Source of the DNA: Burkholderia sp. GAS332
GTDB taxonomy: Bacteria; Pseudomonadota; Gammaproteobacteria; Burkholderiales; Burkholderiaceae
Direction of reading: 5' to 3'
Length of the DNA: 64,000 nt
Assembly (NCBI GenBank): GCA_900142905.1
Contig: FSRV01000002.1
Location: 3,100,001-3,164,000 of the forward strand
Shown: one piece after another, positions 38,041 through 53,078 of the stretch
Numbering within the stretch: position 1 is the stretch's first letter
Layout: the number at the start of each line of letters is the position of its first letter
Program-made: the position numbers and the translations under genes
Notes under the pieces: model-generated
What the model was told of the DNA's origin: nothing
Databases searched by the model: none
What the model saw: only the letters and a program-made list of their open reading frames with translations

Positions 38041-39023
38041 ACGCGCTCCGCCCTCACCCCGCGATCGTTCAGAAACGCCAGCACGCCGCCGAAATCGAGG
38101 CCGCCTTCCGGCGCCTGGAAGCCGACCCGCAGACGGCCGACACGCTGCCCGCCGATGGCTTCAACGCCGCCGCCCAGCAGCGTCACACCGATCGAATGCT
38201 CGTGCGCCAGCTTGCTGAGCACGGGTGAGGCTTCGACGGTATCGGTGAAGGTCAACTCGGCAACCGCGCCATGCCCCTGCGACAGACCTGCACACGCGGG
38301 CAACAACGACCTGCCGAGACGCGATGCGGGGTTGCCCAGCAAAGCCGCCAGCGGCCCGGCCTCGACCACCTTGCCGGCTTCCAGCAAGGCGGCCGAATCG
38401 CAGATCGACTTGACGACATCGAGTTCGTGCGTAATCAGCACGATCGTCACGCCAAGACGCTCGTTCACGTCGCGCAGCAACGCGAGGATCTGCTGGGTGG
38501 TTTCCGAATCGAGCGCGCTGGTCGCTTCATCGCACAGCAGGCAGGACGGCTGCGCCGCCAGCGCCCGCGCGATCCCGACGCGCTGCTTCTGACCGCCAGA
38601 CAACTGCGAAGGAAATGCGTGCGCCTTGTCGGCGAGCCCGACCAGTTCGAGCAGTTCGGTGACCCGCCGCGCACGTTCGGCGCGCTTCATCCCGACGATC
38701 TCCAGCGGCACCGCGACGTTGTCGGCGACATTACGCGCATGCAGCAGATGAAAGTGCTGAAAGATCATGCCGATGCGTTGCCGCTGCCGCCTAAGCGCAG
38801 CAGCGGGCAGCGTCGTCAGCTCTTCGCCGTCCACCCACACGCGTCCCGAGGTGGGGCGCTCCAGCAGATTCAGGCAGCGAATCAGCGTGCTCTTGCCCGC
38901 GCCGCTGCGCCCGACAATGCCAAAGATCGAACCGTCGGCAATCTCCAGCGAGACGCCGTCGAGCGCGGTGAACTCGCCGCTGCCCGAGCGGTAGACCTTG
39001 CGCAAATCCTCAACGCGGATCAC
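38037..39023 (-). CDS. metN: Methionine ABC transporter ATPase
   Basis: 328 residues. GTG start at 39023 overlapping the metQ stop (GTGA). Walker [11 protein letters not shown]-loop FQHFHLL, signature [15 protein letters not shown], Walker [14 protein letters not shown]-loop [15 protein letters not shown]-terminal NIL/ACT-like regulatory domain (about 245-328, [20 protein letters not shown]) allows feedback by methionine. Confidence 0.93.
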
Positions 39024-39856
39024 GCGCCGCTCCCAGCTGAGTGCACCGGAATCACCGAGCCGCGATAGTGGTCGAGGATAAACTTCGCGACTTGTGGCGA
39101 GTTGAGTACGGCCGCGAGACGCTTGATCCGCGGATCGTTCGCCAGCTGCGGCGTGGTCACAACCACGTTCGCGTACGGATTGCCTTCGACCTTTTCGAGG
39201 CCGAGCGCATCTTTGGCGGGAACGAGCCCCGCTTCCAGCGCGTAGTTGCCGTTGATCACAGCGAGATCGACGTCGTCGAGCGAACGCGGCAGTTGCGGCG
39301 ACTCGATCTCGATGATCTTCAGATGCTTCGGATTGGACACGATGTCGCGCGGCGTCGCGAGACTCGCTTCGCTGCCGGAGATACCCGGCTTCAGTTTGAT
39401 CAGGCCTTGTGCCTGCAGCAGAAAGAGCGCGCGGCTCAGGTTCGTCACGTTGTTCGGCACGGCCACCGAGCCGCCGTCCGGCACCTGCGCGAAACTCTTA
39501 TGCTTGTGCGAATAGACGCCGAGCGGCTCGATATGCACGGTCGCAGCCACCGCGAACTTCTGGCCGAGCGCCTGCTCCTGCGAATGCAGATACGGCACGT
39601 GCTGGAAATAGTTCGCATCGACGTCGCCGTGCGCGAGCAGTTCGTTCGGATTCACGCCGTTCGCCACCTCGATCACGTTCAGCTTCAGATCGGGGGCGAT
39701 CTTTTGCACGTAGGCCAGGATTTCGGCGTGCGGCACCGCGTCGGCGGCCACGCGCAGCGGTGGCGCATCGGCTGCGCTCACGTGGGCGGCAAAGGTGAAG
39801 GGCAACACGGCAAAGGCCGCGCTACGGACAAGGCGGATCATCACTGAACGGAGCAT
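39020..39856 (-). CDS. metQ: Methionine-binding protein (MetQ/NlpA family)
   Basis: 278 residues from ATG 39856, with CAGGA upstream; ATGs at 39916 and 39841 are alternatives. Signal sequence ends at AAHVSA, and no lipobox Cys is visible, so it may be a soluble periplasmic protein rather than the usual lipoprotein. NlpA features are [25 protein letters not shown] and [23 protein letters not shown]. The ligand may be methionine, its sulfoxide or an analogue. Confidence 0.88.
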
Positions 39857-39940
39857 GGAGGTCCTGGCGCTAGAAAGGTTGAACGACGCGCAGCTGGCGG
39901 CCGCGCGTAAAGACATCGCAAGAAACCGGTTTAACTGGGC

Positions 39941-40981
39941 TTAGGCGGGCTGTGCGCCGAGCACATCCTGGTAGTGACGCTGCGCGACATCCGGATGCGA
40001 GCGCAAGCGCCCCTTCAGATAGTTCGGGCCGACGTCATGAAACAGCGGATTGTCGGGATCGCTGGCCGGACCGCGCGCCTGGGCCGCAAGGGCCGGCGGC
40101 AAACTCAACAGCGGCACCGTCGCGTCGAGCCGCGCGCCGAGAAAGAACGCGATCGACAAGCGCTCGCTGCCTACCGGTGGACTCACCACGCGATGCACGG
40201 TGGCACGCAGATAGCCATTGGTGGCCAGCTCCAGCAATTCGCCGATATTCACGACGAAGGTGCCCGGCAGCGGCACGGCGTCGATCCACTGACCGTCGTC
40301 GGTGGCGACTTGCAGGCCGGCTTGCCGGTCCTGCAGCAGAAAGCTCAAGAAGCTCGAATCCTTGTGCGAGCCGACACCCTGATCGCTCCTTGTCACCTCG
40401 CGACCCGGGTAGCGAATGATCTTGATGTGCTCGTTCGGCGTCTCGCCGTAGACAGGTTCGAACGCGTCTTCCGGTTGCTCGAGCGCCGCGGCGAACGCGC
40501 CAAGCAAACGGATCGCCACGCGCGTCAATTCCGCTTGCCAGCGCAACAGCACGGGTTTCAGTTCGGGCAGCGTGCCCGGCCATTGATTCGGGCCTTGCAG
40601 ACGGGTCCATACCGGCACGCCGTCACCCTGCGCAATCGGCGGCCGCTCGGCGCCGATATCGAACTGCTCGCGCCAATCGGGCTGGCCGCGCGTCAGCTCG
40701 CCGCCGGCCCGCGTATAGCCGCGAAACTGCGGGGAGCGCACCATATCGAGCGCGCGCTTTTCCGCTTCGGGTAGCAGAAAGAAGCGCCGCGACAGCGCCT
40801 GTACCGAGTCGATCAATGTCGCGTCGACGCCATGGCCGCGCAAATAGAAAAAACCGATATCGCGTGCGGCGTGGCGCAGATTCGCCAGAAAGACGGCGCG
40901 CACCTCGGCGTCGCCGTGATCGAATTGCGCCAGATCGAGAATCGGCAACGCCGTCGCGGTGATGCTGTTTGCCTCGGTCAT
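39941..40981 (-). CDS. Isopenicillin N synthase-family Fe(II)/2-oxoglutarate oxygenase
   Basis: 346 residues. Iron ligands His206 and Asp208 (GSHKDSS) and His263 (TVHRVV), with Arg274 in RLSIAFF binding the cosubstrate carboxylate. The DIOX_N domain is at the front (LPILDLAQF, GFFYLRGHG). Start ATG 40981 is inside a longer frame; the upstream part has no family similarity. Upstream of metQNI in the same direction (84 bp to metQ), so probably co-transcribed. It may oxidise a sulfur compound or hydroxylate an amino acid; the actual reaction is unknown. Confidence 0.85.
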   Translation of the reverse strand: MTEANSITATALPILDLAQFDHGDAEVRAVFLANLRHAARDIGFFYLRGHGVDATLIDSVQALSRRFFLLPEAEKRALDMVRSPQFRGYTRAGGELTRGQPDWREQFDIGAERPPIAQGDGVPVWTRLQGPNQWPGTLPELKPVLLRWQAELTRVAIRLLGAFAAALEQPEDAFEPVYGETPNEHIKIIRYPGREVTRSDQGVGSHKDSSFLSFLLQDRQAGLQVATDDGQWIDAVPLPGTFVVNIGELLELATNGYLRATVHRVVSPPVGSERLSIAFFLGARLDATVPLLSLPPALAAQARGPASDPDNPLFHDVGPNYLKGRLRSHPDVAQRHYQDVLGAQPA

Positions 40982-41260
40982 GAAGTCTTGCCTTGCAGGG
41001 AATGCCAGGCGATCCGGCGGGCACATGCATGCCACGGACGTGCTTCACTTCGCTTCGCGTCGCACAGCTGGCCGGATTCGCCGATTTCAAAAAATGTCTG
41101 AAACTGCGAATCGATGCTATCAGCGGCGTTGAATGCGGCAAACCAACAAATCACGCTTTCGATATGCGTGAATTATCGTGATGTGGCGCAGTGTCCTGGC
41201 TTAGTGTCCTCCGCCACCGGCCGCACTGGGATCGGTCCTGACCGGCGTGGTGAACCAGAG
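40982..41260. other. Intergenic region, no gene seen
   Basis: About 280 bp between the oxygenase start (minus strand) and the SDR stop. It must hold the promoter of the oxygenase-metQNI operon. I saw no clear riboswitch-like pairing, operator palindrome or copy of the sulfonation-cluster element. Confidence 0.5.
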
Positions 41261-42037
41261 TCAGGCCGGCGCTCCCGGCAAGCCGGCGTAGTAGCTCCCC
41301 GCCGCCATACCGCCATCAACGGACAACTCGCTGCCATTGCAATAGGACGCCTCGTCGCTAGCGAGGAACAGCGTCGCCCGGGCAATCTCGTCCGGTTCGC
41401 CGACCCGTTGCATCGGCACGTGTTTATAGGCCTTGTTGACCTCTTCGACCGGTGCCCCACCCGGATTCGACATCAGCGTGTTGACCCCACCGGGATGAAT
41501 CGAGTTCACACGCACACCATGGTGACCGAGCTCGAGCGCAGCGACCTTGGTCAGCCCACGCACACCCCATTTGCTCGACACATAGGCCGCAAGCGCGTTG
41601 ACACCACGCAACCCGTCAACCGACGAAATGTTGACGATCGAGCCGGCCCGCTGGGTCTTCATGACAGTCGCGACCGTGCGAATGCCCAGGAAGGTGCCGA
41701 CGAGGTTGATCGAAACGGCGCGCTCGAAGTCACGTTTGGACAGCGCGGTGATCTCGCCGAACACGAGCACGGCTGCGTTGTTGACAAGCACATCGATTCG
41801 TTCAAATTTTCTGAGCGTTGCCGCGACGAGGGACTCCCAATTTGCTTCGTCGCTGACATCGAGACGCATGAAACAGGCTGCGTCCCCCAGTTCGCGTGCG
41901 AGTGCCTCGCCCTCCGCTTCCAACACATCGGCGATGACCACTCGCGCCCCTTCCTGCGCGAAGAGGCGGCACGTCTGTTCGCCCATGCCGCGGGCACCGC
42001 CGGTGACAATAGCGACCTTGTTTGCAAGACGACCCAT
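41261..42037 (-). CDS. Short-chain dehydrogenase/reductase
   Basis: 258 residues. AAGGAG precedes ATG 42037. Cofactor motif GGARGMGEQ, NNAAVLVFGE, Ser in NISSVDG, YVSSK catalytic pair, and C-terminal CNGSELSVDGGMAAG: a classical NAD(P) SDR of the 3-beta/20-beta-hydroxysteroid or cyclohexanol dehydrogenase kind. It follows the NTF2-like gene at 42274 with a decayed SDR fragment in between, and is probably co-transcribed with it. Likely part of the sulfonation cluster: it would oxidise or make the hydroxyl group. Confidence 0.85.
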   Translation of the reverse strand: MGRLANKVAIVTGGARGMGEQTCRLFAQEGARVVIADVLEAEGEALARELGDAACFMRLDVSDEANWESLVAATLRKFERIDVLVNNAAVLVFGEITALSKRDFERAVSINLVGTFLGIRTVATVMKTQRAGSIVNISSVDGLRGVNALAAYVSSKWGVRGLTKVAALELGHHGVRVNSIHPGGVNTLMSNPGGAPVEEVNKAYKHVPMQRVGEPDEIARATLFLASDEASYCNGSELSVDGGMAAGSYYAGLPGAPA

Positions 42038-42158
42038 GATGAAGCTTCTCCTTTTCTGACTGGCTGAGCGCGTCGCTGCAAAGGGAACGCGCAAGCCAGG
42101 TTGATGTGGTTGTAGTACCGGGATTTCGGAATCAGTGCACGCATACGCCCGCGAGGCG

Positions 42159-42273
42159 TCAACCCCAGTAGGCCTGCCCGCCATCGAGGGGCAGTGTCGC
42201 GCCGGTCAGGGTAGCTGGCGTTGTCCATATCCAGCGCGAAGCCGACGCCGTGGCGTCCGTTCCCTGAGCGGGT
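42159..42273 (-). pseudogene. SDR C-terminal remnant
   Basis: On the minus strand one frame reads TLTGATLPLDGGQAYWG then a stop, the standard end of an SDR (TGATLPVDGG). The preceding NASY motif that should join it lies in another frame, so there is at least one frameshift. No SDR body is left upstream, since the NTF2-like gene begins at once. This is the tail of a lost third SDR next to the intact one at 41261. Confidence 0.5.
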
Positions 42274-42798
42274 CTACGCCTGATTTTCCGGGTCGTCGAC
42301 GAGTGCCGGTGCGCTTCGGCCCGCGAACAGAATCTTCGCCATGCCATCGGCGAGATCCATTGCCAGCGTCGACGTCACGACGCAACGCGTCGCAGCGATC
42401 TTCCAAACGCCATCGAGCTTGCGATATTCGTCCTCGTAGTACGCGCCGAGCTGCGTGACCACGCGATCACGCGTGTTGATGAGGTAGTAGAACAATCCCC
42501 AGGTGCCGCGTGCCGTCGTGTCGTCGACGAGCGCAATCTGCGGATTCGCTCCGTGATGCATTTCGACGATATGGTCGTGGCAGCCGAGTCGCTCGAACAC
42601 GTCGACCAGTTGATCGCGGTCGCTGAACACGCCGATACGCCCGTAGTCGATCAGCACCTTGCCCGGCGCGAAGCAGTCGCGCACCCCCTGCGGGTCCTTC
42701 CGGTCACAGCAAAAGAAGTAACGCGCCTTCAGGCTGCGGATCGCCTCCGTGTCTTCGAGCCTGCGCAGCCGCGCCTCCAGCTGGTCCATTGCCGTCAT
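42274..42798 (-). CDS. NTF2/SnoaL-like protein
   Basis: 174 residues, ATG 42798 with GGAG seven bases before. The SnoaL_4-type pattern is LEDTEAIRSLKARYFFCCDRKDPQGVRDCF, then EMHHGANPQI and YYEDEYRKLDGVWKIAATRCV. The cone-shaped fold binds hydrophobic ligands and often does isomerase, dehydratase or cyclase chemistry. A cluster element (42871-42889) lies 72 bp upstream in the same orientation. Probably cytosolic enzyme in the sulfonation pathway. Confidence 0.82.
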   Translation of the reverse strand: MTAMDQLEARLRRLEDTEAIRSLKARYFFCCDRKDPQGVRDCFAPGKVLIDYGRIGVFSDRDQLVDVFERLGCHDHIVEMHHGANPQIALVDDTTARGTWGLFYYLINTRDRVVTQLGAYYEDEYRKLDGVWKIAATRCVVTSTLAMDLADGMAKILFAGRSAPALVDDPENQA

Positions 42799-42870
42799 GT
42801 AGTCTCCGTGTTCCCTGGGTGATCGAAAGCGATGCCCTTGCGCCAAGTTACAAGTTCCACTGCAAGGCTC

Positions 42871-42889
42871 AATCATCCATTCAGACTAA
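42871..42889 (-). promoter_or_regulatory. Sulfonation-cluster element, copy A
   Basis: Minus strand reads TTAGTCTGAATGGATGATT. Shares TTAGTCYG and the GGAYGA part with copies at 48181 and 48832. It lies 72 bp upstream of the NTF2-like gene, in the same orientation. Confidence 0.5.
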
Positions 42890-43000
42890 CTGTGACGGGA
42901 GCGGGGATCAGGGCTAACCCCATGCCGCCCTCTTACTGCTCTGCAACATAGGCGCTGCGACTGGCGGTCCCGGCCGCCCCCCAGACACCCAAGGTTTCCC

Positions 43001-43019
43001 CCTAATTCAATCGGACTAA
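43001..43019 (-). promoter_or_regulatory. Sulfonation-cluster element, copy B
   Basis: Minus strand reads TTAGTCCGATTGAATTAGG. The left half is conserved, the right half is weaker. It is 112 bp upstream of copy A in the same orientation, so may be an upstream site for the 42798 gene. Confidence 0.4.
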
Positions 43020-43038
43020 GACCCGGCAAATCGGCGGT

Positions 43039-43057
43039 GCTAGCCTGAGTCCATACA
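43039..43057 (+). promoter_or_regulatory. Sulfonation-cluster element, copy F (weak)
   Basis: CTAGCCTGAGTCCATACAA; keeps TAGnCTGA but the right half is poor. It lies 70 bp upstream of the exported-peptide gene in the right orientation, the same distance as the strong copies. Confidence 0.3.
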
Positions 43058-43127
43058 AAATCATCGCTCTGCCGCGCCCCGGAATGGCCGCGCAAGACGA
43101 ACCCTGGCTGAACTGGACGGAGACACC

Positions 43128-43352
43128 ATGAAACGCATTTCCCGAAAACTCAGTGTCGTTGGCGGATGTACGGTCGCGTTGTTGGCGCTCGGCGGCTTCG
43201 TGCGCACGCATGCAGGCGATGCCAGTTCGGACAATGGCGCGCGCGCGGCAGCCTACGCCAACCTGGACCCGACCAGTTGCTCGCTAAACTGTCCGATCGT
43301 CAGCCGGAATCAATTGGGTATGGGCGCGCTCAATACGCTCGCGGCGCATTGA
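43128..43352 (+). CDS. Small exported peptide, unknown function
   Basis: 74 residues. RBS GGAG sits 6-7 bp before ATG. A basic start (MKRISRK) and hydrophobic core (VALLALGGF) form a Sec signal peptide, with likely cleavage near RTHA. The remaining ~44 residues hold two cysteines (CSLNC), a single Tyr flanked by AAAY-ANLD, and no known domain. It is the only small secreted protein in the sulfonation cluster and has a weak copy of the shared element upstream. It does not resemble any family I can name. Confidence 0.6.
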   Translation: MKRISRKLSVVGGCTVALLALGGFVRTHAGDASSDNGARAAAYANLDPTSCSLNCPIVSRNQLGMGALNTLAAH

Positions 43353-43399
43353 TTCGATCGATCGCGGTCTACGCCATAGCGCGCGACCACAATGGGGGG

Positions 43400-43425
43400 C
43401 GCATCGGCCTGTTCGGTCCGATGCG
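43400..43425. terminator. Hairpin between convergent genes
   Basis: CGCATCGG (43400-43407) pairs with CCGATGCG (43418-43425) over a 10-nt loop. It lies between the exported-peptide stop (43352) and the DHH gene stop (43430, minus strand). No U-run. Confidence 0.45.
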
Positions 43426-43429
43426 TCGT

Positions 43430-44470
43430 TCAGGGCATCCGAAAAGCCGTCTCGAAGCGCGCGATGAACTGCTCGCATTCTGTCTCCGGCAGATGATTGA
43501 TCCCCGCCGCCCGCTTTCTGCCGCCGCCGGTGTCGAAGCCGCGGCAGAAATCATCGGCGCCCAGCGCTTTGCCCGCCGGCACCCGCACGCTCACGACGAA
43601 GCCGCCATCGGACTTCGGCGATAGGACAGCGAGCGCGCTGTCCGGCCGCGTTTGCATCAGTTCGTTGGCAAGCACCCCGGTTGCGCGCCGCGCCCACGCT
43701 TCGTGAGGAAGCCTGACCAGTGTGGCACCGCTCACCTCCCGTTCGGGACGCAGTGCACGCGCCTTCCCCATATCTTCACGATAGCCTTCGCACAACGCCG
43801 CGAAAACGTGGGTGTCCCGCATGAAATCGCTCGGGTCGGCGAACGGTAGTATCGCCTCGGCCAATACGGCAGGGTCGAAGTGCAGGTCGTCGACGGTTTC
43901 GCCGTAGGCGTTGTAGTTCAGGTGACGTCCCAGTTGCGCGAGCGAGGCAACGGTTTCGGGTGCGAGTCCATACGCGTGAGCGAGCGCCTGGCCGAGCTGC
44001 GGCAGCTCATCGCCGAAGGCCGCGACGATGGCCCAACGGACATGTCGTCCACCCAGGTAGCCGTTGACAATCGAGCTGGTGCACACGTCGGCCGCGGTGT
44101 TGATATGGGCGTCGAAGCCCGGATGAGCCGGCAAATCGCCCGCAAAATGATGGTCGAAATACCGGACCTGCGCGCCGGTCCGCAACAGACGGTTGACGTC
44201 CTCACCGTTCTGTTCGTGCGAGACGTCGAGGACGGTGACCTGGTCGCCGCGACCGGCTTCGATACGCCGCAACAACTGGATGTCGCGCTTGACGCCGGTG
44301 ACCAGCACGGCCTGCGGCGCCTCGGCGAGCCGCAACTGTTGCAGCGCGCAGAGTCCGTCCGCGTCGCCGTTGAAGGCGAAGAAGTGAGTCGCAGTGGCGG
44401 CTGTGCGCGAATCATCCGCGCCCGCAGCGCCGCTGCGCTGATGCTGATCCGTGACGAAATGCTGGGTCAC
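43430..44470 (-). CDS. DHH-family phosphoesterase
   Basis: 346 residues, GTG start at 44470 with GGAGA upstream. Motif I FNGDADG (33-39), motif II LDVS (81-84), DHH motif FDHH (105-108), and a C-terminal DHHA1-like GGGRKRAAG (315-323) in which the usual His of GGGH is Arg. The family holds RecJ, NrnA-type oligoribonuclease/PAP phosphatases and exopolyphosphatases. As the last gene of an operon with a PAPS-dependent sulfotransferase, it is a good candidate for hydrolysing the inhibitory product adenosine 3',5'-bisphosphate. The family is seen; the substrate is inferred. The substitutions at motif I and GGGH may mark a separate subfamily. Confidence 0.8.
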   Translation of the reverse strand: MTQHFVTDQHQRSGAAGADDSRTAATATHFFAFNGDADGLCALQQLRLAEAPQAVLVTGVKRDIQLLRRIEAGRGDQVTVLDVSHEQNGEDVNRLLRTGAQVRYFDHHFAGDLPAHPGFDAHINTAADVCTSSIVNGYLGGRHVRWAIVAAFGDELPQLGQALAHAYGLAPETVASLAQLGRHLNYNAYGETVDDLHFDPAVLAEAILPFADPSDFMRDTHVFAALCEGYREDMGKARALRPEREVSGATLVRLPHEAWARRATGVLANELMQTRPDSALAVLSPKSDGGFVVSVRVPAGKALGADDFCRGFDTGGGRKRAAGINHLPETECEQFIARFETAFRMP

Positions 44471-44493
44471 AGTGTGTCTCCAAACGGGTTAAG

Positions 44494-45285
44494 TCAAGGC
44501 ATGAAGTCGCCGCCGTTGGCGTCGAGTGTCGCACCGGTGATGACCTTCGCGTAGTCGGACACCAGAAATAGTGCCGCTTTTGCGCAGTCGTCGTCGGTCG
44601 GAATGTGTCCAAGCGCGATATTCGCTGCGATCGGCGCGATAATCTGCTCCTGCGGCACATTGTAGGCTGCCGCCGCCTGCCGGACATGCTCCTGCACCGG
44701 CGCGCCCCACATCCAGCCCATGTGGATGCTGTTGGCCCGGATCCCATGCGGCCCAAGTTCTCGCGCGAGATACTTGACCGCCACCGCCAGCGCGCCTTTG
44801 GACGCCGCATAGCCCGATTCGCCCGGAAACGGCTTGCGCACCGCCTGCGTGTTGATCATGACGATCGCGCCGCTGCCGCGCTGTTTCATGTGCGGCACCA
44901 CTTCCAGCGTCAGGTTCATGGTGCCGAACACGTTGGTGTCGAACACCGAGCGCCAGCCGTCCAGATCGGCCTCTTCGATCGGCTCGGGGAATTTCCCGTG
45001 CACAAATGCGCTGTTCACCAACGCGTCAATCCGGCCGAACCGCCCGATCGCCTGGTCGGCCAGGTGCTTGCATTGCTGCCTGTCGGTAATGTCCGCCGTC
45101 ACCTTCAGCACCTGACAATCGACGCCCAATTCGCGGATCCGCTGTTCCGCCTCATCCAGTTTCGCCGCGGTACGGGCGGCGGCGACAACCGCGTGCGCAC
45201 CCTCGCGCGCGGCCTCGACGGCAAGCTTGATACCGAGGCCCGGACCGATGCCCGATACCACGACGACCTTGTTTCTCATGAGCAT
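44494..45285 (-). CDS. Short-chain dehydrogenase/reductase
   Basis: 263 residues. AAGGGAG precedes ATG 45285; the stop of the NTF2-like gene lies one base away. Cofactor motif SGIGPGLG, NSAFVHG in place of NNAG, YAASK catalytic pair; the active-site Ser is replaced by Thr in MINTQAV. Ends TGATLDANGGDFMP. NAD(P)-dependent oxidation or reduction of an alcohol or ketone is expected. Operon with NTF2-like, sulfotransferase, DUF1214 and DHH genes. Confidence 0.85.
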   Translation of the reverse strand: MLMRNKVVVVSGIGPGLGIKLAVEAAREGAHAVVAAARTAAKLDEAEQRIRELGVDCQVLKVTADITDRQQCKHLADQAIGRFGRIDALVNSAFVHGKFPEPIEEADLDGWRSVFDTNVFGTMNLTLEVVPHMKQRGSGAIVMINTQAVRKPFPGESGYAASKGALAVAVKYLARELGPHGIRANSIHMGWMWGAPVQEHVRQAAAAYNVPQEQIIAPIAANIALGHIPTDDDCAKAALFLVSDYAKVITGATLDANGGDFMP

Positions 45286-45286
45286 G

Positions 45287-45727
45287 TCAAAGACTCCCTT
45301 GATAGTTATAGGAGTAGCAAAATTCCAGGCAGCGGTTTTGGATGCGCCAGCCGTCGCCGGTGCGCACCAGTTCATCCGCGTACCAGATACCGAAGAACAT
45401 CACCTTCTCACTGCCATCGGGCTGCCGCATCACCATCGGGTTGTGGCACATCGTGCGGGCAGTCGCCGTCGCGCCTTGCAGCGCGATGCTGATATTGCCC
45501 ATCATGTGCTGGCTGCGCGGAAACTGCGGCAGTGCCTTGGCCAGAAACTGCCTGGCCTCTTCGAGCGTGCAAAGCGGGCCGCCGGTCGCGCGGTAGTCGA
45601 TCACGGCGTCGGCGGTGAAAATGCGATCCAGCGCGGCAAAATCGCGGGCATCGATCGCTGTGCCGTAATCAATCAGTAAATCGGAGATGTCGGCCCGGTC
45701 GAGCAGGGACTGCAAATCGCGCGGCAT
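45287..45727 (-). CDS. NTF2/SnoaL-like protein
   Basis: 146 residues. SnoaL_4 pattern: DISDLLIDYGTAIDARDFAALDRIF, QHMMGNISIAL, FFGIWYADELVRTGDGWRIQ. Similar in fold to the protein at 42274 and, like it, followed by an SDR gene, so the cluster has two NTF2-SDR pairs. Probably a hydrophobic-ligand enzyme such as an isomerase or dehydratase. Gap of 78 bp from the sulfotransferase. Confidence 0.82.
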   Translation of the reverse strand: MPRDLQSLLDRADISDLLIDYGTAIDARDFAALDRIFTADAVIDYRATGGPLCTLEEARQFLAKALPQFPRSQHMMGNISIALQGATATARTMCHNPMVMRQPDGSEKVMFFGIWYADELVRTGDGWRIQNRCLEFCYSYNYQGSL

Positions 45728-45805
45728 GACTTTCCTGTGTGTGTCGATGATGAGTGGGCGTTATGAATGCGAACGCACCGCGCTGGCTGCTCGGGGAACC
45801 GAGCA

Positions 45806-47017
45806 TTAAGGTGCCGTGGTTACGCCCGGCAAAATATGACGCTCACGGTACGGCGCAAAGTCGCGTTCAAGCTGTTCCACGCTCAGCCCGAACTCCGCGA
45901 GCGTGTAGTCGTGTACGGCGCGCTTGTCACGGCTGTTGTGCGACAGCCATGCCTTCATCGCGTCGCGGACATCGTCCGTAAACGACATGCCGGCAAAGCG
46001 ATACACCCGCTCGATCACGCCGAACGGATCGGTCACGGTGTCCTCGAAACGGATGTCGAGAAAACACCCGGCCGGCAGCGCGGCGCGCACCGCCATCGCG
46101 TGGTGAACAGCGCGCCTCATTTGCGCGGACCACTGCCCGCCGACCACTTTGGCGTCCGGTGCGTCGGCAAACATTTTCCACAGGGTGTGCGCCATGCTGG
46201 CCATCGACGGAATCGTCATGCTCGGATCGCGGTGGGTGAGCACCACCTTTGCGCGCGGGAAAACCTTGAACAGGCGTTCGAGCGTATGCAGATGCTGCGG
46301 TGTCTTGAGTATCCATCGCTGCGCATCCGGCACGCCGCGTTGCCGCTTTTGCCATTGCAGGAACTGCAGCATCTTTTTCAGGTATTCATAGACGGAGGTC
46401 TGGTCCTGCTGCGCGAGCCACGCCGTGTACGTTGGGACGTTCGCATACGAGTCCATTGCGCACATGAACGAGTGCTCCATCAGCATGAACTCTTCGTCCG
46501 GCTGCATCGCATCGAGTGGGTGAATCGCAAGAATCTGCGGGATGTATTGGATCATCTGCTCGACCTCCGCACAGGCCGAGGCGATGCGCGACGCGGGATG
46601 CTCGACCGCTTCACCCGGCAACGGCGCCGGGTAGCGCGTTTCCCACCAGGCCGCTGAGTAGAAGCGTGGGTCGACGGCCAGCATGCGTTGCAGCAGCGTG
46701 GTGCCGGTCCGCGGCAAGCCGACAATGACAAGCGGATCATCGATCGGCTGCGTGAGGATCTCGGGATAACGCCGGCAATAGTCTTCGATGACCAGCCGGT
46801 TGACCAGTTGCGCCAGCATCTTGCCGTGCAACAGCGCCTCGCCTTGCCGCGACAGGTTGGCCTCGCGGGTCAGCGAATCGATCAAGACGTGAAGCGCTTC
46901 ACGATAGTTGCCGGCGCCGAAATCGGTCAGGCCTCCCGAGCGTTCGATCGCCAGCGCCAACAGGCTGTCTGCGTCGAGGCGGGTTACGATGGTTGCGGTG
47001 CTTGCGTCGGTCGTCAT
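45806..47017 (-). CDS. PAPS-dependent sulfotransferase (Stf family)
   Basis: 403 residues, cytosolic. The 5'-phosphosulfate loop LPRTGTT is at 101-107 and the 3'-phosphate site THRDPSMTIPS at 261-271, with LKTPQHL just before it. Length and the N-terminal helical part fit the Sulfotransfer_3-type bacterial enzymes (mycobacterial Stf relatives). It transfers a sulfuryl group from PAPS to a hydroxyl of a small molecule, yielding PAP. Overlaps DUF1214 by 4 bp. The genes to make PAPS (cysD, cysNC) lie 2 kb away, divergent. Acceptor unknown. Confidence 0.88.
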   Translation of the reverse strand: MTTDASTATIVTRLDADSLLALAIERSGGLTDFGAGNYREALHVLIDSLTREANLSRQGEALLHGKMLAQLVNRLVIEDYCRRYPEILTQPIDDPLVIVGLPRTGTTLLQRMLAVDPRFYSAAWWETRYPAPLPGEAVEHPASRIASACAEVEQMIQYIPQILAIHPLDAMQPDEEFMLMEHSFMCAMDSYANVPTYTAWLAQQDQTSVYEYLKKMLQFLQWQKRQRGVPDAQRWILKTPQHLHTLERLFKVFPRAKVVLTHRDPSMTIPSMASMAHTLWKMFADAPDAKVVGGQWSAQMRRAVHHAMAVRAALPAGCFLDIRFEDTVTDPFGVIERVYRFAGMSFTDDVRDAMKAWLSHNSRDKRAVHDYTLAEFGLSVEQLERDFAPYRERHILPGVTTAP

Positions 47018-48123
47018 GCCGCCTCCTCAAGCGCTTCGAGTTTGACGACCCGTGCAACCGGATGAACCGTCTGCGCGGCGCCCACCCAGCGCCAGCACAT
47101 CGTGCCATTGCGGTGCCCCGCCGTGTCGAGCCAATTGGGCTTGCCAGGATTGCGCGTGCTCAGGATCAGCGTGACGCCGCCATTGGCGTCGTAGTGCGCA
47201 GAATGTTTGTTGATGCAGATGGTGTGGTGCCGGTAGTCGAGCGATTCCATCCAGTAGTTGTTGATCTGCAGGTTCCAGAAGTCGCATTCGGGTAGGGATG
47301 CCGCCTCGATCACCAGCGCCTCGTCGTCGGCGAGGGTCCAGTACGAGTGGTAGTAGAAGATGTTCGGATCGCCGCCCACGGCCTGGCACACCGCCTGATC
47401 GGCGGGCGGCAACTGGTTGGCGTGGCGCTGATAACCTTCCGCCCAATTCGCGAAGAGACGTGCGGTGTTCTCGACGAAACTGCCCGCGCGCAACAGGCCG
47501 GTGTGCAGCGTGGCGGGATCGAGCGCAGCCGGCTTGTCCGTCGAACCGATGCGCTCGATCTTCAGTTGGGCGGGCTTCTCCGACTTGCGATCGAGAAACG
47601 TCTGCCGCGCGATCAGCGCGTTGGTGCCCGGCTCCATACGTACCCAGTTGCCTTCGTGCGGCCGTTGGCTCAGCACGATTTCAAAACTGCCGTCCGCCTC
47701 GACCGCCAGATGGTTGGCATCGATAAAACCGGTCTGGGTCATCTTACCGTCGGTCTCGTAGCCACCCTTCTGCGTCCCGAAGCTCAAATACGCCACCGTG
47801 CCGCGCTGGCCGGAAACCCGATAGTCATGTGCGCCGTTCAGGCGTGCATATTGGTAGAGATTGTCCGGGTTATCTGCGCCGATCTTCGCGGTTTCGTGCG
47901 ATGGCGAGAAGAAGCCGGGGAAATCCGCGTCCGCGAATTCCACATGCATTTCAAGCGCAATTCGCAAGAGCCGGCTCAGATAACGAAAGCCCTCCGTGCG
48001 GGTCAGCGCGTCGCTGGGCGCCTCCGCCCGGAGAATCTGCTGGCCGCTGCGTTTTAGTGTTTCGCAGAAATCGGCCCATGCCTGGCCGGAAAGAAGCTGT
48101 TCTTCACTGGAATGTGCTGCCAT
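47014..48123 (-). CDS. DUF1214-domain protein
   Basis: 369 residues, no signal peptide, so cytosolic. ATG 48123 has GGAGA upstream; a longer frame to 48162 lacks support. C-terminal DUF1214 domain: YHSYWTLADDEALVIEA, then CDFWNLQINNYWMESLDYRHHTICINKHSA, and GKPNWLDTAGHRNGTMCWRWVGA. DUF1214 has no defined activity; the rich His/Trp/Tyr set suggests a ligand-binding or catalytic site. It leads the minus-strand operon DUF1214-sulfotransferase-NTF2-SDR-DHH. An element copy is 57 bp upstream. Confidence 0.8.
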   Translation of the reverse strand: MAAHSSEEQLLSGQAWADFCETLKRSGQQILRAEAPSDALTRTEGFRYLSRLLRIALEMHVEFADADFPGFFSPSHETAKIGADNPDNLYQYARLNGAHDYRVSGQRGTVAYLSFGTQKGGYETDGKMTQTGFIDANHLAVEADGSFEIVLSQRPHEGNWVRMEPGTNALIARQTFLDRKSEKPAQLKIERIGSTDKPAALDPATLHTGLLRAGSFVENTARLFANWAEGYQRHANQLPPADQAVCQAVGGDPNIFYYHSYWTLADDEALVIEAASLPECDFWNLQINNYWMESLDYRHHTICINKHSAHYDANGGVTLILSTRNPGKPNWLDTAGHRNGTMCWRWVGAAQTVHPVARVVKLEALEEAA

Positions 48124-48180
48124 GCCGGGTCTCCGTCGTGTCCTTGAAAGCACACGATACAAGTGGACGAATCCCGCGCT

Positions 48181-48199
48181 CTTCGTCCGACCGGACTAA
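48181..48199 (-). promoter_or_regulatory. Sulfonation-cluster element, copy C
   Basis: Minus strand TTAGTCCGGTCGGACGAAG, identical to copy D at 18 of 19 positions. It lies 57 bp upstream of the DUF1214 gene and points towards it. Forms a divergent pair with copy E, 36 bp centre to centre. Confidence 0.65.
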
Positions 48200-48216
48200 C
48201 CTGGGTTTACCCGCCA

Positions 48217-48235
48217 ATAGTCCACCTGGACGAAG
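48217..48235 (+). promoter_or_regulatory. Sulfonation-cluster element, copy E
   Basis: ATAGTCCACCTGGACGAAG; shares TAGTC and GGACGAAG with C and D. Oriented towards the SRPBCC gene, 74 bp upstream of its start. With copy C it covers both divergent promoters. Confidence 0.55.
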
Positions 48236-48309
48236 AACGCAACGGCCCACCCCTGACAGGATGATCGCGCGCGACAACGTGCAACAACCCGCTTTCCAAG
48301 GAGTCTTAT

Positions 48310-48795
48310 ATGTCCAGTCAGCAAAACATGGTGACATCGATCAAGGTCGAAATCGATGCGCCTGCGTCGCTTGTGTGGGACGTGCTCACCGATCTCGCCC
48401 AGTATCCGCAATGGAATCCGTACACGGTCAAGGTTGAATCGACGCTCAAGATGGGCGAACCGGTCAACCTGTTCCTGCCGAACCCTGCCGCGCCTGGCGA
48501 ACTGCTCCACGTGATCGAGCATTTGGTGGCATTCGACCGCCCGACGCTGCTGTCGTGGGAAATGATCCCTTCAGCCGGCAACCCGGATGCGGCGCGCCGC
48601 GACCAGGTGATCGAAGCCACAGGCGAGGCAAGCTGTACTTACTATTCGACTGACCTGTTTCTAGGGCCGACGGCGCCGGTCGTGATGGCCACGCACGGCG
48701 AATGGGTGCGCCTGGGTTTTGACGCGGTCGCGCGCAGCCTGAAAGTACGGGCCGAGTCGCTCTACCAGGCCGCACGCGCGACGCAGCCGGGCTAG
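48310..48795 (+). CDS. SRPBCC-domain protein
   Basis: 161 residues with AAGGAG before ATG. Bet v1-like/polyketide-cyclase fold: SIKVEIDAPASLVWDVLTDLAQYPQWNPYT, then VIEHLVAFDRPTLLSWEM. This superfamily binds hydrophobic ligands (steroids, polyketides, aromatic rings) in a deep cavity. Divergent from the sulfotransferase operon and preceded by element copy E, so it belongs with the cluster; it may bind or transfer the pathway intermediate. Confidence 0.85.
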   Translation: MSSQQNMVTSIKVEIDAPASLVWDVLTDLAQYPQWNPYTVKVESTLKMGEPVNLFLPNPAAPGELLHVIEHLVAFDRPTLLSWEMIPSAGNPDAARRDQVIEATGEASCTYYSTDLFLGPTAPVVMATHGEWVRLGFDAVARSLKVRAESLYQAARATQPG

Positions 48796-48831
48796 TCCTT
48801 TCATACGGACAAACCACGCCCCATGCGTTTT

Positions 48832-48850
48832 TTAGTCTGGTCGGACGAAG
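48832..48850 (+). promoter_or_regulatory. Sulfonation-cluster element, copy D
   Basis: TTAGTCTGGTCGGACGAAG, 18/19 identical to copy C. 90 bp upstream of cysD in the same orientation. Confidence 0.65.
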
Positions 48851-48940
48851 AATCCATCTGCACCGAACCAGTACTGTCTCCTTCATGCGCGGCCCCTCAT
48901 CTTCGTCACGGGGCCCAGCAAAACGACAAGGAGACTCACG

Positions 48941-49837
48941 ATGTTGACCCACTTGGAGCGTCTGGAAGCAGAGAGCATCCACATCATGCGCGAGGTGGTG
49001 GCCGAATGCGAAAACCCGGTGATGCTGTACTCGATCGGCAAGGACAGCTCGGTCATGCTGCATCTCGCGATGAAAGCGTTCTATCCCGCCAAGCCCCCCT
49101 TTGCGCTGTTGCACGTCGATACGACGTGGAAATTCCGCGAGATGATTGCATTTCGCGACCAGACCGTCGAGCGACTCGATCTTGAACTGCTGGTCCATAT
49201 CAACCCTGAGGGTGTCGAGCAAAACATCAATCCGTTCACACACGGCTCGGCGGTGCATACGGACATCTGGAAGACGCAGGGTCTGAAACAGGCGCTCGAC
49301 CACCATGGATTCGATGCTGCCTTCGGCGGAGCGCGCCGCGACGAAGAGAAATCGCGCGCCAAGGAACGCATTTTCTCGATCCGCTCCGAACAGCACCGCT
49401 GGGACCCGAAGATGCAGCGCCCCGAACTCTGGCACCTGTACAACGCGCGCAAGCGCAAGGGTGAAAGCATCCGCGTGTTCCCGATCTCGAACTGGACCGA
49501 GCTAGACATCTGGCAGTACATCTACCTGAACGAGATTCCGATCGTGCCGTTGTACTTCGCGAAGGAGCGTCCGGTGGTCAAGCGTGACGGCACGCTCATC
49601 ATGGTCGACGACGAACGCATGCCGCTTCAAAAGAACGAAGTACCGGAGATGAAGAAAGTGCGTTTCCGCACGCTCGGCTGCTACCCGCTCACCGGCGCGA
49701 TCGAGAGCGAGGCCGATACGTTGACCGGCATCATCCAGGAAATGCTGCTGGCGAAGACGTCGGAGCGCCAGGGACGGTTGATCGATAGCGATTCAGCCGG
49801 TTCGATGGAAAAGAAGAAACAGGAGGGATATTTCTGA
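48941..49837 (+). CDS. cysD: Sulfate adenylyltransferase subunit 2
   Basis: 298 residues. PP-loop nucleotide site SIGKDSS at 31-37; [18 protein letters not shown] and [11 protein letters not shown] are CysD/NodP hallmarks. With CysN it makes APS from ATP and sulfate. RBS AAGGAG. Its stop overlaps the cysNC start by 1 base (TGATG). No cysH, cysI or cysG reductive genes nearby, so it likely supplies sulfonation rather than cysteine synthesis, as nodP does. Confidence 0.93.
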
Positions 49838-51741
49838 TGGCACACGTTTCCACCATGATTGCCGACGACATCGAGCAGTATCTGTCGACGCATCAAACCA
49901 AAGGGCTGCTGCGCTTCATCACCTGCGGCAGTGTCGACGACGGCAAGAGCACGTTGATTGGCCGGCTGTTGTACGAGTCGAAGATGCTGTTTGAAGATCA
50001 GCTCAGCCAGCTCGAAGCGGATTCGAAAAAAGTCGGCACGCAAGGCGGCGATCTCGACTTCGCGCTGCTGGTCGACGGACTCAGCGCCGAGCGCGAACAG
50101 GGCATCACCATCGACGTCGCTTACCGTTTTTTCTCGACTGAGAAGCGCAAGTTCATCGTCGCCGATACGCCGGGACATGAACAGTACACGCGCAATATGG
50201 TGACCGGCGCTTCCACGGCCGACGTCGCGATCATCCTGATCGATGCGCGCAAAGGCGTATTGACGCAGACGCGCCGCCACAGCTACCTGGTGTCGTTGAT
50301 CGGCATCCGGCGCATCGTGGTGGCGATCAACAAGCTGGACATGGTCGACTACGCGCAAGACGTATTCGATCGAATCGACGCCGAGTATCGCGAGTTTGCC
50401 AGCCAGATCGGGCTGGACAACATCGTCTGCATCCCGATGTCCGCGCTGCGCGGCGACAACGTCACCGAGCCCAGCGCCAACACGCCCTGGTATCAGGGAC
50501 CGGCGCTGATGGAATATCTGGAAGCCGTACCGATCGAAGACGATGCGCAACGCAACAAAGCGTTCCGCCTGCCGGTGCAATGGGTCAACCGGCCTCACCT
50601 GAATTTTCGCGGCTACGCAGGCAACATTGTCTCAGGCAACATCCGTCGCGGCGAACGCATTCGCGTGTTGCCGTCCGGCAAGGAAAGCCGTATCGCGTCG
50701 ATCATCACTGCCACGGGCGAGTGTGACGCGGCAGCGTGCGGACAATCGGTCACGCTGACGCTAGAAGACGAAATCGATGTCAGCCGCGGTGACGTGATCG
50801 CGTGCACCGACGCGCCGCCCGCCGTCGCCGACCAGTTCGAAGCAACCCTCGTCTGGATGAGCGACGAGCCGATGCTGCCAGGCCGTCCTTATCTGCTGAA
50901 GATCGGCACCCGTCTGGTGGGCGCCACCAGTGCGCAGCCCAAGTACAAGATCAACGTCAACACGCTCGAACACCTGGCGGCCCGCACGCTCGATCTCAAC
51001 GAAATCGGCGTGTGCAATCTCAGCCTCGACCGACCGATCGCGTTTGACAGTTACGCCGAGAATCGCGATACCGGCGGCTTTATCGTGATCGACCGGCTGA
51101 CTAACAATACGGTCGGCGCCGGCATGCTGCATTTCGCGTTGCGGCGCTCGCAGAACGTGCATTGGCAGGCCATCGACGTCGATCGCGCGGCGCATGCTGC
51201 ACTCAAGGGCCAAACGCCGCGCATCGCGTGGCTCACGGGTTTATCGGGCGCGGGCAAATCGACCATCGCCAACCTGGTGGAGAAGAAACTGCACGCGCTC
51301 GGCAAACACACCTATCTGCTCGATGGCGACAACGTGCGTCATGGCTTGAACAAGGATCTCGGCTTCTCCGAGGCCGACCGGGTCGAGAATATCCGGCGTG
51401 TCGCCGAGGTGGCGCGCCTGATGACGGACGCAGGCCTGATCACCCTGGTGTCGTTCATTTCGCCCTTCCGTGCCGAGCGCAACATGGCGCGCGCGTTGGC
51501 CGGCGCGGGCGTGTTCGTCGAGATATTCGTGGACACGCCGATCGATGTCGCCGAACAACGCGATCCCAAGGGACTGTACAAGAAAGCGCGGCGCGGCGAA
51601 CTGAAGAACTTCACCGGCATCGATTCGCCGTATGAGCCGCCCGAACAGCCGGAAATCCGCATCGACACCACGACCGACTCGCCCGAGCAGGCAGCGGAGC
51701 GCATCGTGGCGTATTTACTGGGCGACGGCAATCCGCACTAA
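49837..51741 (+). CDS. cysNC: CysN-CysC fusion: sulfate adenylyltransferase subunit 1 / APS kinase
   Basis: 634 residues in two enzymes. GTPase CysN part: P-loop GSVDDGKST (31-39), [18 protein letters not shown]; then beta-barrel domains. APS kinase part from about 455: P-loop GLSGAGKST (468-476), [17 protein letters not shown], and ending [16 protein letters not shown]. The fusion yields PAPS directly from sulfate, as NodQ in rhizobia and RaxQ in Xanthomonas do, and is typically tied to a sulfotransferase. Here the sulfotransferase is 2.8 kb away in the same regulon. Confidence 0.94.
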
Positions 51742-51790
51742 CGACCTCACGCCGTCAGGCTAACGTGTTACCGCTGCGCCGCCCCATCGA

Positions 51791-51809
51791 CTAGATCAAA
51801 CGGACGATG
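51791..51809 (+). promoter_or_regulatory. Sulfonation-cluster element, copy G (diverged)
   Basis: CTAGATCAAACGGACGATG: right half CGGACGA is conserved, left half keeps TAG. 78 bp upstream of the LuxR gene and oriented to it, the same geometry as the strong copies. Would give autoregulation. Confidence 0.35.
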
Positions 51810-51887
51810 TGGGCGGCGCGCACGTTTGTATGATCGTCTCAAACACAAGAAAAAATCTTGAGTCCATGTTCATCGGAGACACCGAAC

Positions 51888-53078
51888 ATGTCGATGGAGA
51901 TGTCGACGGATTGCGACAGTATCGCTTCCGAATACTTTGACGCCGCGGCGCTTGGCCCCCGTCAATTGAGTGCGCTGCTCGGTCTCGTCTATCAGGGGCC
52001 TTTGGAAGCGACGCCGTGGTCGCGCCTGCTGGAATGCATCAGGCAGCAGCTCGACGCGAGTTTTGTCACGCTGGTGCTGCGCAATCCGGCAAGTGACCGG
52101 CCTGGTCTGATCGTCAATGCGTCCTCTTATGGCACGCTATTGCCGGGCGAGCCGTCCTACAGCGAGCACTACTATGCGATGTGCCCCTTTACCACCCTGC
52201 CCGCCGGTCAGGTGCTCACTGCCGACGAGCTGTTCGGCGAACCCGCCTGGTGTGAGCATGAGTTCTATCTGCAATACCTGAAGCCACTCGATCTGCGTTA
52301 TATCCTCGCGGCCAACATCCGCACCGACGACGGCGTGGAATGTGCGTTCTTTGTCAGCCGCGCTCATCGCGGTTGCGACTATGGCCAGGCCGACAAGGCG
52401 TTGATCGCCATTCTCCTGCCTCATCTGAAACGCGCCGTCGATCTGCACTCGACGCTCGACGTTCTCGAATCCGAGCGCACCTTGTACGCGGGCACCATCG
52501 ACCGCATGCTGGTGGGCACCGTGATCCTCGACGAGCATGGCAAAGTCATGAAGAGCAACGGCGCGGCGGACCGTCTGTTTGCGAAGCAGGATGGCATTTA
52601 CATCAGCCACGATGCCTTGCATGCGCACTGCCCACTGGAGAATCGCAAGTTCCAGAAGACAATTCAGTCGGCGATTAACAATCACCTGATCGCCGCTACC
52701 GCACGCGTCGAGGCGACAACACTGTCACGGCCGACAGGTGAAATGCCGCTCAGCGTTCTGATGCGCCCAATTCCGCTCAACTATTGCGCGGAGGACAAGA
52801 GACGGCGGCCCGCCGTCGCCGTCTTCATTCGCGATCCCGCCGGCTCGCCGCAGAATGCGCGCGTCATGCTGCGCAAGTTGTTTCGCCTGACGCCGACCGA
52901 AACGGAACTCGCCCTTCTTCTGGTTGACGGCCTCACACTGGACGAAGCCGCCGATGCGCTAGGCGTCACGAAGAATACGGCGCGAGCGCATTTGCGCGGT
53001 GTATTTGCGAAAACGGGTGCGACACGCCAGGCGGTGCTCGTGAAGACGCTGCTCAATAGCGTCGTTTCGATGGTGTGA
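51888..53078 (+). CDS. LuxR-type regulator with PAS-like sensor
   Basis: 396 residues from ATG 51888, chosen because GGAG is upstream; the frame extends to a TTG at 51858. N-terminal 200 residues are sensor-like, a PAS-like segment at about 205-250 (GTVILDEHGKVMKSNGAADRLF), and the LuxR HTH at the end: RLTPTETELALLLVDGLTLD, then EAADALGVTKNTARAHLRGVFAKTG. No AHL-binding motif seen. It follows cysNC and is the best candidate for the factor reading the 19-bp elements. Regulator role at those sites is inferred. Confidence 0.85.
   Translation: MSMEMSTDCDSIASEYFDAAALGPRQLSALLGLVYQGPLEATPWSRLLECIRQQLDASFVTLVLRNPASDRPGLIVNASSYGTLLPGEPSYSEHYYAMCPFTTLPAGQVLTADELFGEPAWCEHEFYLQYLKPLDLRYILAANIRTDDGVECAFFVSRAHRGCDYGQADKALIAILLPHLKRAVDLHSTLDVLESERTLYAGTIDRMLVGTVILDEHGKVMKSNGAADRLFAKQDGIYISHDALHAHCPLENRKFQKTIQSAINNHLIAATARVEATTLSRPTGEMPLSVLMRPIPLNYCAEDKRRRPAVAVFIRDPAGSPQNARVMLRKLFRLTPTETELALLLVDGLTLDEAADALGVTKNTARAHLRGVFAKTGATRQAVLVKTLLNSVVSMV

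Follow-up and report, generated by a model that had tools for sequence, protein, structure and literature searches.

A PAPS-dependent sulfonation module of Burkholderia sp. GAS332 is associated with aerobic steroid catabolism and may act on a steroid

We analyzed a 64,000-nucleotide stretch of the Burkholderia sp. GAS332 genome (GCA_900142905.1, contig FSRV01000002.1, positions 3,100,001 to 3,164,000; hereafter the window), which is part of contig C2 of a 10.4 Mb genome in three contigs. At positions 41261-53078, it carries a cluster encoding a sulfotransferase that uses 3'-phosphoadenosine 5'-phosphosulfate (PAPS), together with CysD and a CysN-CysC fusion (CysNC), a DHH phosphoesterase, two short-chain dehydrogenases (SDR1 and SDR2), two NTF2-like proteins (NTF2a and NTF2b), a DUF1214 protein, an SRPBCC protein and a LuxR-type regulator. 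We propose that the cluster is probably an accessory to aerobic (9,10-seco) steroid catabolism, with a steroid or a steroid catabolite as the substrate that it sulfonates. The association with steroid catabolism is strongly supported by co-occurrence with the steroid oxygenase KshA in two genome samples, by linkage in 14 genomes and by a similar actinobacterial module; from it, we infer a steroid or a steroid catabolite as the acceptor. If this tie of a conserved sulfotransferase module to KshA holds, steroid degraders either label their intermediates with sulfate or use sulfation to drive a step of ring breakdown. Orphan genes would also gain a specific, testable function, among them the DUF1214 gene and three genes of the mycobacterial cholesterol regulon that lack an assignment. 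The steroid degradation pathways of bacteria are regarded as well mapped, yet neither a sulfonation step nor a sulfotransferase module in aerobic degraders appeared among the literature matches listed, whose supplementary tables and transcriptomes may list the genes. In the literature searched, the tie to steroid degradation was not found as reported; bacterial sulfotransferases with their own PAPS supply are already known.

A genome scan with the sulfotransferase returned 58 loci, in which the window proteins were compared and scored as present by identity thresholds of our choosing. The closest sulfotransferases belong to Paraburkholderia solitsugae (95% identity) and P. domus (94%), which suggests that the host is itself a Paraburkholderia or a very near relative. 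SDR2 is present in 55 loci, DUF1214 in 54, SRPBCC in 50, and CysD and CysNC in 47 each. These counts define a core of DUF1214, sulfotransferase, SDR2 and SRPBCC plus PAPS supply, which, mostly with cysD/cysNC, is found in Paraburkholderia, Cupriavidus, Burkholderia, Pseudomonas and Comamonas. The LuxR-type regulator was found at 40% identity or more in 20 of the 58 loci, all of them among the 21 that carry the DHH gene. SDR1 is conserved at 97% in L006 and L007, and other loci gave only short-chain dehydrogenase matches of 24-42%. Four loci of Luminiphilus and HTCC2080 (L060-L063), which we take to represent the OM60 clade, keep the core, but no PAPS genes were present in the DNA examined. A sequence-only reading of the window had described a self-contained module for PAPS synthesis, use and recycling; rather than lying scattered in relatives, its core genes are linked across the 58 loci, and the module is conserved as a unit. 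Of the genes whose joint conservation had been proposed as a check, DUF1214, SDR2 and cysD/cysNC recur in most sulfotransferase loci; NTF2b (7/58 loci at 50% identity or more), NTF2a (4/58 at the same threshold) and the DHH gene (21/58) are found in fewer.

Ten of the 58 loci carry, in the fetched flanks, a Rieske oxygenase whose best match in the PDB is 3-ketosteroid 9-alpha-hydroxylase (4qdc, E = 7e-103). Genes of the DUF1329, acyl-CoA dehydrogenase, thiolase and MaoC types also recur there. We used this oxygenase, KshA, as a marker and counted it in genome samples, with family-sample cut-offs of E ≤ 1e-60 for the sulfotransferase and E ≤ 1e-70 for KshA; matches with one internal stop (such as the sulfotransferase of G231 and the DHH genes of G177 and G220) were counted as present. 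Among 249 genomes of the family, 32 have the sulfotransferase, 37 have KshA and 32 have both. With the window genome set aside, all 31 sulfotransferase-positive genomes have KshA (31 with both, 0 with the sulfotransferase only, 5 with KshA only, 212 with neither; Fisher p = 1.3e-34). A sample of 234 Pseudomonas genomes gave 7 with the sulfotransferase, 33 with KshA and 7 with both, and 6/6 sulfotransferase-positive genomes have KshA once the central genome is set aside (6, 0, 26 and 201; p = 4.4e-6); relatedness among the genomes inflates both p values, which tells against our interpretation. The sulfotransferase lies 27-48 kb from KshA in 14 of the 32 positive family genomes, and in all 32 the start of a DHH gene is 1.6-4.1 kb from that of the sulfotransferase. 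A third, class-wide sample of 360 genomes was too sparse, with six sulfotransferases, three of them only 34-37% identical, and two KshA; one of its genomes, G409, has both genes.

Within one genus, g12, which its tree neighbor L025 suggests is Burkholderia, KshA is present in 15/15 genomes with the sulfotransferase and in 1/13 (G169) with the DHH gene but without it, among genomes carrying at least one of the two genes. The 13 genomes with a close DHH homologue (66-72%) and no sulfotransferase (L066-L071, L093-L099) look as though they lost the module and the steroid pathway together. An SDR2 match remains beside the DHH gene in four genomes lacking the sulfotransferase (L066, L068, L096 and L097) and is shortened or fragmented in L066, L096 and L097; these pieces are likely relics of a lost cluster.

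Several observations weigh against the tie to steroid catabolism. In the window genome itself, KshA (KshA_C, E = 7.5e-75, C2:2580651) lies on the same contig as the cluster at a distance of 565 kb, so that linkage was not found there and the idea of steroid genes adjoining the cluster was rejected. KshA (E ≤ 1e-50) was detected in 36 of the 48 genomes searched, those of all loci other than L006, L007, L008, L024, L032, L053, L054, L057, L060 and L062. The 12 genomes without a match belong to Comamonas (five), Collimonas, Aromatoleum, Myxococcota or uncultured bacteria (three) and the OM60 type (two). In the class-wide sample, G265 has a sulfotransferase (44%) without KshA. KshA also occurs without the sulfotransferase in five family genomes and in 26 of the 33 KshA-positive Pseudomonas, so steroid catabolism does not depend on the module. 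Finally, the main text of a paper on the steroid transcriptome of C. testosteroni contains no sulfate, cysD or sulfo- terms (PMC10637631), which neither supports nor excludes induction.

The KshA of Comamonas and the OM60 clade may be too divergent for detection, since both are listed as predicted steroid degraders, along with Burkholderia, Cupriavidus, Marinobacterium, Novosphingobium, Pseudomonas and Sphingomonas, in the available text of PMC4810484. The same text attributes the steroid pathway to each of the four Comamonas species sequenced and reports growth of P. resinovorans and C. necator on testosterone (PMC4810484); both species are among the sulfotransferase loci (L021; L013 and L015), the match being at species level. 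The flanks of the C. testosteroni locus (L044) hold molybdopterin oxidoreductase, LysR and TctC genes and no steroid gene. Around the window genome's KshA are genes for MMPL, BNR, DUF1302 and DUF1329 proteins, and nearby are those for 2-oxopent-4-enoate hydratase, acetaldehyde dehydrogenase and 4-hydroxy-2-oxovalerate aldolase, meta-cleavage steps that presumably correspond to the TesE/F/G reactions. At L114, two open reading frames found no match among PDB sequences; 4554-6143 is a DUF1302 gene by Pfam, and 2351-3316 matched no family and is perhaps not a real gene.

A comparable arrangement exists outside Proteobacteria. On one strand of a Tsukamurella plasmid lie cysNC, cysD and the gene of an IclR-type regulator, and on the opposite strand DUF1214-like, short-chain dehydrogenase and sulfotransferase genes; the window proteins match the plasmid's proteins at 31.5 to 49%; no SRPBCC protein or phosphatase for 3'-phosphoadenosine 5'-phosphate (PAP) is annotated in 17 kb of this plasmid. 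Mycobacteria have 375-amino acid homologues of the Tsukamurella DUF1214-like protein, several of them named DUF1214, among the best 120 matches listed. The PDB sequences closest to the window sulfotransferase are 2zq5, which we take to be Stf1/Rv3529c, and 2z6v. In the portion of PMC6429209 available, the M. tuberculosis cholesterol gene list gives Rv3529c, Rv3530c and Rv3531c as a conserved hypothetical, a possible oxidoreductase and a hypothetical protein, and a KstR binding site lies between Rv3531c and Rv3532 according to the accessible text of PMC1995591. Rv3529c-Rv3530c-Rv3531c may thus be the same triad as DUF1214-SDR-sulfotransferase, given the nearest structure, the gene order in Tsukamurella and the mycobacterial DUF1214 homologues; unlike the window genes, its products are listed there only as hypothetical proteins or a possible oxidoreductase. 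In sphingomonads, plasmids have CysQ, TonB receptor, short-chain dehydrogenase and DUF1214 genes near each other; plasmid pNL2 has the same group plus a steroid Delta-isomerase gene. Another such plasmid is found in strain ES2-1, presumably an estradiol degrader.

The recycling of PAP by the DHH protein (43430-44470, minus strand), which had been raised as a possibility, is strongly supported by its exchange with CysQ and by its predicted fold. The DHH gene occurs in 21 of the 58 loci and CysQ in 28; no locus has both, and nine have neither. Linkage to PAPS genes and interchangeability with CysQ thus both point to a PAP phosphatase. A representative CysQ (L037) scores above the equivalog cut-off (288 versus 228.8 bits), and the two Inositol_P proteins of the host fall below it (93.8 and 94.4 bits), which makes the DHH protein the likely PAP phosphatase. 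Its structural model folds as a two-domain DHH/DHHA1 protein matching 8a8k, RecJ and NrnA; the archaeal DHH PAP phosphatase 8a8k is the best match, tied with RecJ-type proteins, at 11% identity over the structural alignment, and a sequence search against the PDB gave nothing better than E = 0.5. The motifs NGDADG, D82, DHH (106-108), GD (153-154) and the DHHA1 glycine motif GxGR (315-318) are invariant in 24/24 aligned sequences. The phosphoesterase label therefore holds by motifs and fold, but not by profile, as Pfam DHHA1 matches only below its cut-off (23.7 versus 25.9 bits).

An independent operon (L080, 8635-14864) places a DHH homologue between cysC and a sulfotransferase gene, upstream of cysD-cysN. 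The cysC-DHH-sulfotransferase-cysD-cysN operon also appears in L075, L082 and L084, from other genera of the family, with L080 the one read fully. A described counterpart is MtPAPP of Methanothermococcus (PDB 8a8k), which was found beside ATP sulfurylase and adenosine 5'-phosphosulfate (APS) kinase genes and hydrolyzes PAP, according to the available text of PMC10322725. Like the window protein, it has the DHH/DHHA1 fold and a gene near those for ATP sulfurylase and APS kinase; unlike it, MtPAPP is archaeal and serves sulfate reduction, while the window DHH gene sits with sulfonation genes. Within a sulfonation operon, a bacterial DHH protein thus apparently fills the place of CysQ in PAP hydrolysis. 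In one locus of Pseudomonas linyingensis (L052, 4713-14493), the sulfotransferase nests among the CysQ rows of the sulfotransferase tree, yet DHH, LuxR and an unfused CysD are present, as if the supply and recycling cassette had been exchanged.

From protein families, CysD and the CysN half would convert ATP and sulfate to APS, which the CysC half would phosphorylate to PAPS. The short-chain dehydrogenase, with the NTF2-like, DUF1214 and SRPBCC proteins, may present or produce a steroid hydroxyl, to which the sulfotransferase would transfer the sulfo group of PAPS. The DHH protein, or in relatives the unrelated CysQ, would then split the by-product PAP, a sulfotransferase inhibitor, into AMP and phosphate. 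The LuxR-type regulator probably activates the module when steroid is present; the titles cited in PMC6678751 include one on TeiR, a factor of the LuxR type on which testosterone degradation depends. Because genes devoted to supplying PAPS and removing PAP point to considerable flux, we favor conjugation in stoichiometric amounts, by which a steroid intermediate would stay soluble and contained, over production of a trace signal.

The same features suit a second fate of the sulfate ester within steroid catabolism, namely a leaving group on a steroid hydroxyl that the DUF1214 or an NTF2-like protein would eliminate, and this main variant deserves consideration even if we think it rather unlikely. 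Curacin biosynthesis offers a precedent in which sulfation primes an elimination. The module goes with a degradation pathway, its PAPS supply and PAP removal fit high flux, NTF2-like and SRPBCC proteins lie beside the sulfotransferase, and no sulfatase family matched among the scanned cluster genes (Pfam, NCBIfam). Against it, no lyase can be named: the DUF1214 protein matches the fold of PDB 6ans from Burkholderia cenocepacia (72% identical), but all its clear fold matches (6ans, 3u07, 3vb9 and 2p3y) are structures without an assigned function, which gave no clue to its chemistry. Extended further, aerobic degraders from Proteobacteria to Mycobacteriales might share a DUF1214-SDR-sulfotransferase step in which PAPS is spent in catabolism to place a sulfate leaving group on an intermediate of ring degradation, a speculative proposal that would explain Rv3529c-Rv3531c.

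The cluster had been proposed to make, oxidize and sulfonate an undescribed hydrophobic alcohol. Biosynthesis of such a non-steroid product would fit a cluster that does not adjoin steroid genes in its own genome, and short-chain dehydrogenases, NTF2-like, SRPBCC and LuxR proteins also occur in secondary metabolism. We found no polyketide synthase, terpene synthase or non-ribosomal peptide synthetase domain among 40 window open reading frames by Pfam, and the presence of KshA in every sulfotransferase-positive genome of two samples, together with the linkage and the Tsukamurella and KstR parallels, points instead to steroid catabolism. Synthesis from scratch is therefore improbable and that part of the sequence-only reading is probably wrong, while the part on PAPS is right; the hydrophobic alcohol itself survives as a hydroxysteroid or steroid catabolite rather than a biosynthetic product.

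We consider general detoxification, in which metabolically versatile soil bacteria keep a sulfotransferase of broad specificity for phenols or xenobiotics along with genes that supply it with PAPS, to be no more probable. Phase-II-type sulfotransferases have been proposed in bacteria, as stated in the available part of PMC10932419, and most hosts have large genomes. However, the contrast in KshA within g12 (15/15 versus 1/13) holds at broadly similar genome sizes, and DUF1214-, SDR- and sulfotransferase-type genes remain grouped from Tsukamurella to OM60-type bacteria.

That the cluster is redundant sulfate assimilation lying by chance beside a sulfotransferase is very improbable: cysD and cysN homologues are common assimilation genes, but the window cluster lacks a reductase gene and the host has a separate locus (L064) with a sulfite/nitrite-reductase-type protein, cysH, cysD, cysN and cobA, so that cysD/cysNC is not its only sulfate-activation locus. 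The cysI-like gene of L064 was assigned by eye, with no curated cut-off passed. The host CysH passes the APS-reductase model TIGR02055 (288.4 versus 235.3 bits) and the broad PRK02090 model (293.3 versus 154 bits) and fails both narrower PAPS-reductase models (142.8 versus 254.2 and 153.2 versus 165.1 bits). It has CC at 117 and CxxC at 200, 83 residues apart, which we take to be the APS-reductase cluster motif. Because CysH passes the APS-reductase model and has these cysteines, host assimilation probably runs via APS and makes no PAP.

The window APS kinase is not the only one, an idea we rejected since the genome has three. One of the others adjoins a second sulfotransferase gene encoding TPR repeats (G000:C1:3121130-3122424; L115:9017-11229). 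The third (G000:C1:4253985-4254434; L120:7866-8537) lies near a Phos_pyr_kin-type kinase and an acyltransferase, with no sulfotransferase among the seven L120 open reading frames scanned. With two further APS kinases, one of them beside the TPR-type sulfotransferase, PAPS also serves other purposes.

Among described systems, NodPQ/NodH and RaxPQ/RaxST have a CysNC-type PAPS supply beside a sulfotransferase. The window cluster shares this placement and differs in its association with the steroid pathway and in the candidate PAP phosphatase of its operon; as had been noted for nod and rax genes, no Nod or Rax partner gene (nodABC, raxX, others) was found among the 40 window open reading frames scanned with Pfam. 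Bacteroides, unlike the window's host, is a gut anaerobe and is, to our knowledge, not known as a steroid degrader. In the excerpts available of PMC9417993, its cholesterol sulfotransferase BT_0416 lies beside the putative PAPS-synthesis genes BT_0411-BT_0415, of which BT_0412 is assigned to sulfate import and BT_0413-BT_0415 to PAPS synthesis, and both BT_0412 and BT_0416 respond to cholesterol. By gene content, this system resembles the window cluster in pairing a bacterial sulfotransferase, there acting on a steroid, with PAPS genes, and BT_0411 could in principle be a PAP phosphatase. Among the literature matches listed, gut-bacterial sulfonation is represented by this Bacteroides enzyme and a bioinformatic study of Sutterella.

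All the genes named by the sequence-only reading were recovered in place by Pfam and NCBIfam scans; they form two divergent units separated by a 147-bp gap (48163-48309). The leftward unit, on the minus strand, is led by the DUF1214 gene (47014-48162; Pfam E = 4.9e-10), overlapped by 4 bp by that of the sulfotransferase (45806-47017; Sulfotransfer_3, E = 3.5e-43, 148.8 versus 27 bits). NTF2b (45287-45727; SnoaL_4, E = 6.4e-30), SDR2 (44494-45375; PRK07890-type, NF005909, 347 bits against a cut-off of 258) and, after 23 bp, the DHH gene follow. The open reading frame of SDR2 overlaps its neighbor by 89 bp, so its true start is probably near 45285 or 45279 and not 45375. Beyond a 553-bp gap lie NTF2a (42274-42876, minus strand; SnoaL_4, E = 8.7e-27) and SDR1 (41261-42184, minus strand; adh_short_C2, E = 9.1e-66), which are peripheral to the module. 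The rightward unit, on the plus strand, comprises SRPBCC (48310-48795; Polyketide_cyc2, E = 1.1e-10), the ATP sulfurylase small subunit CysD (48941-49837; NF009214, 570.6 bits against 413), CysNC, fusing the GTPase subunit of ATP sulfurylase to APS kinase (49837-51741; NF004035, 1081.6 bits against 715; APS_kinase domain, E = 7e-69), and the 406-amino acid LuxR-type regulator (51858-53078), whose C-terminal helix-turn-helix matches GerE at E = 2.1e-4, below the cut-off (21.3 versus 23.5 bits). No curated NCBIfam name was obtained for the sulfotransferase, DUF1214, NTF2a, DHH or LuxR proteins, and in a promoter and terminator scan of the cluster signals did not exceed those of shuffles.

The sulfotransferase scores above its profile cut-off and has both nucleotide motifs that had been read from the sequence. 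The P-loop RTGTT (103-107) and the HR...S segment (H262, R263 and S271), which we take to be the PAPS-site motifs, are at least 97% invariant in 67 aligned rows including the window's, and by sequence the protein is an intact PAPS-type sulfotransferase. Its alignment omitted L057 (a stop), its tree L053 (a split frame) and the DUF1214 alignment L086.

Two minor observations concern the surroundings and relatives of the cluster. Between it and an M20 peptidase gene, the window carries NlpA/MetN/MetI-type transporter genes and a 2-oxoglutarate oxygenase gene (37372-41035); the transporter genes are not present at the corresponding places of L006 and L007. In 28/28 CysQ-type loci, 348-404 open codons precede CysD in frame with no stop (L037:4921-6897, and L023, L024, L026-L031, L033-L036, L038-L051 and L055). 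Nine aligned extensions have a conserved helix-turn-helix-like domain of ~330 amino acids, for which Pfam gave no match. By eye, it resembles what we take to be an inactivated IS630-type transposase, and a transposase-like/CysD fusion would be unusual.

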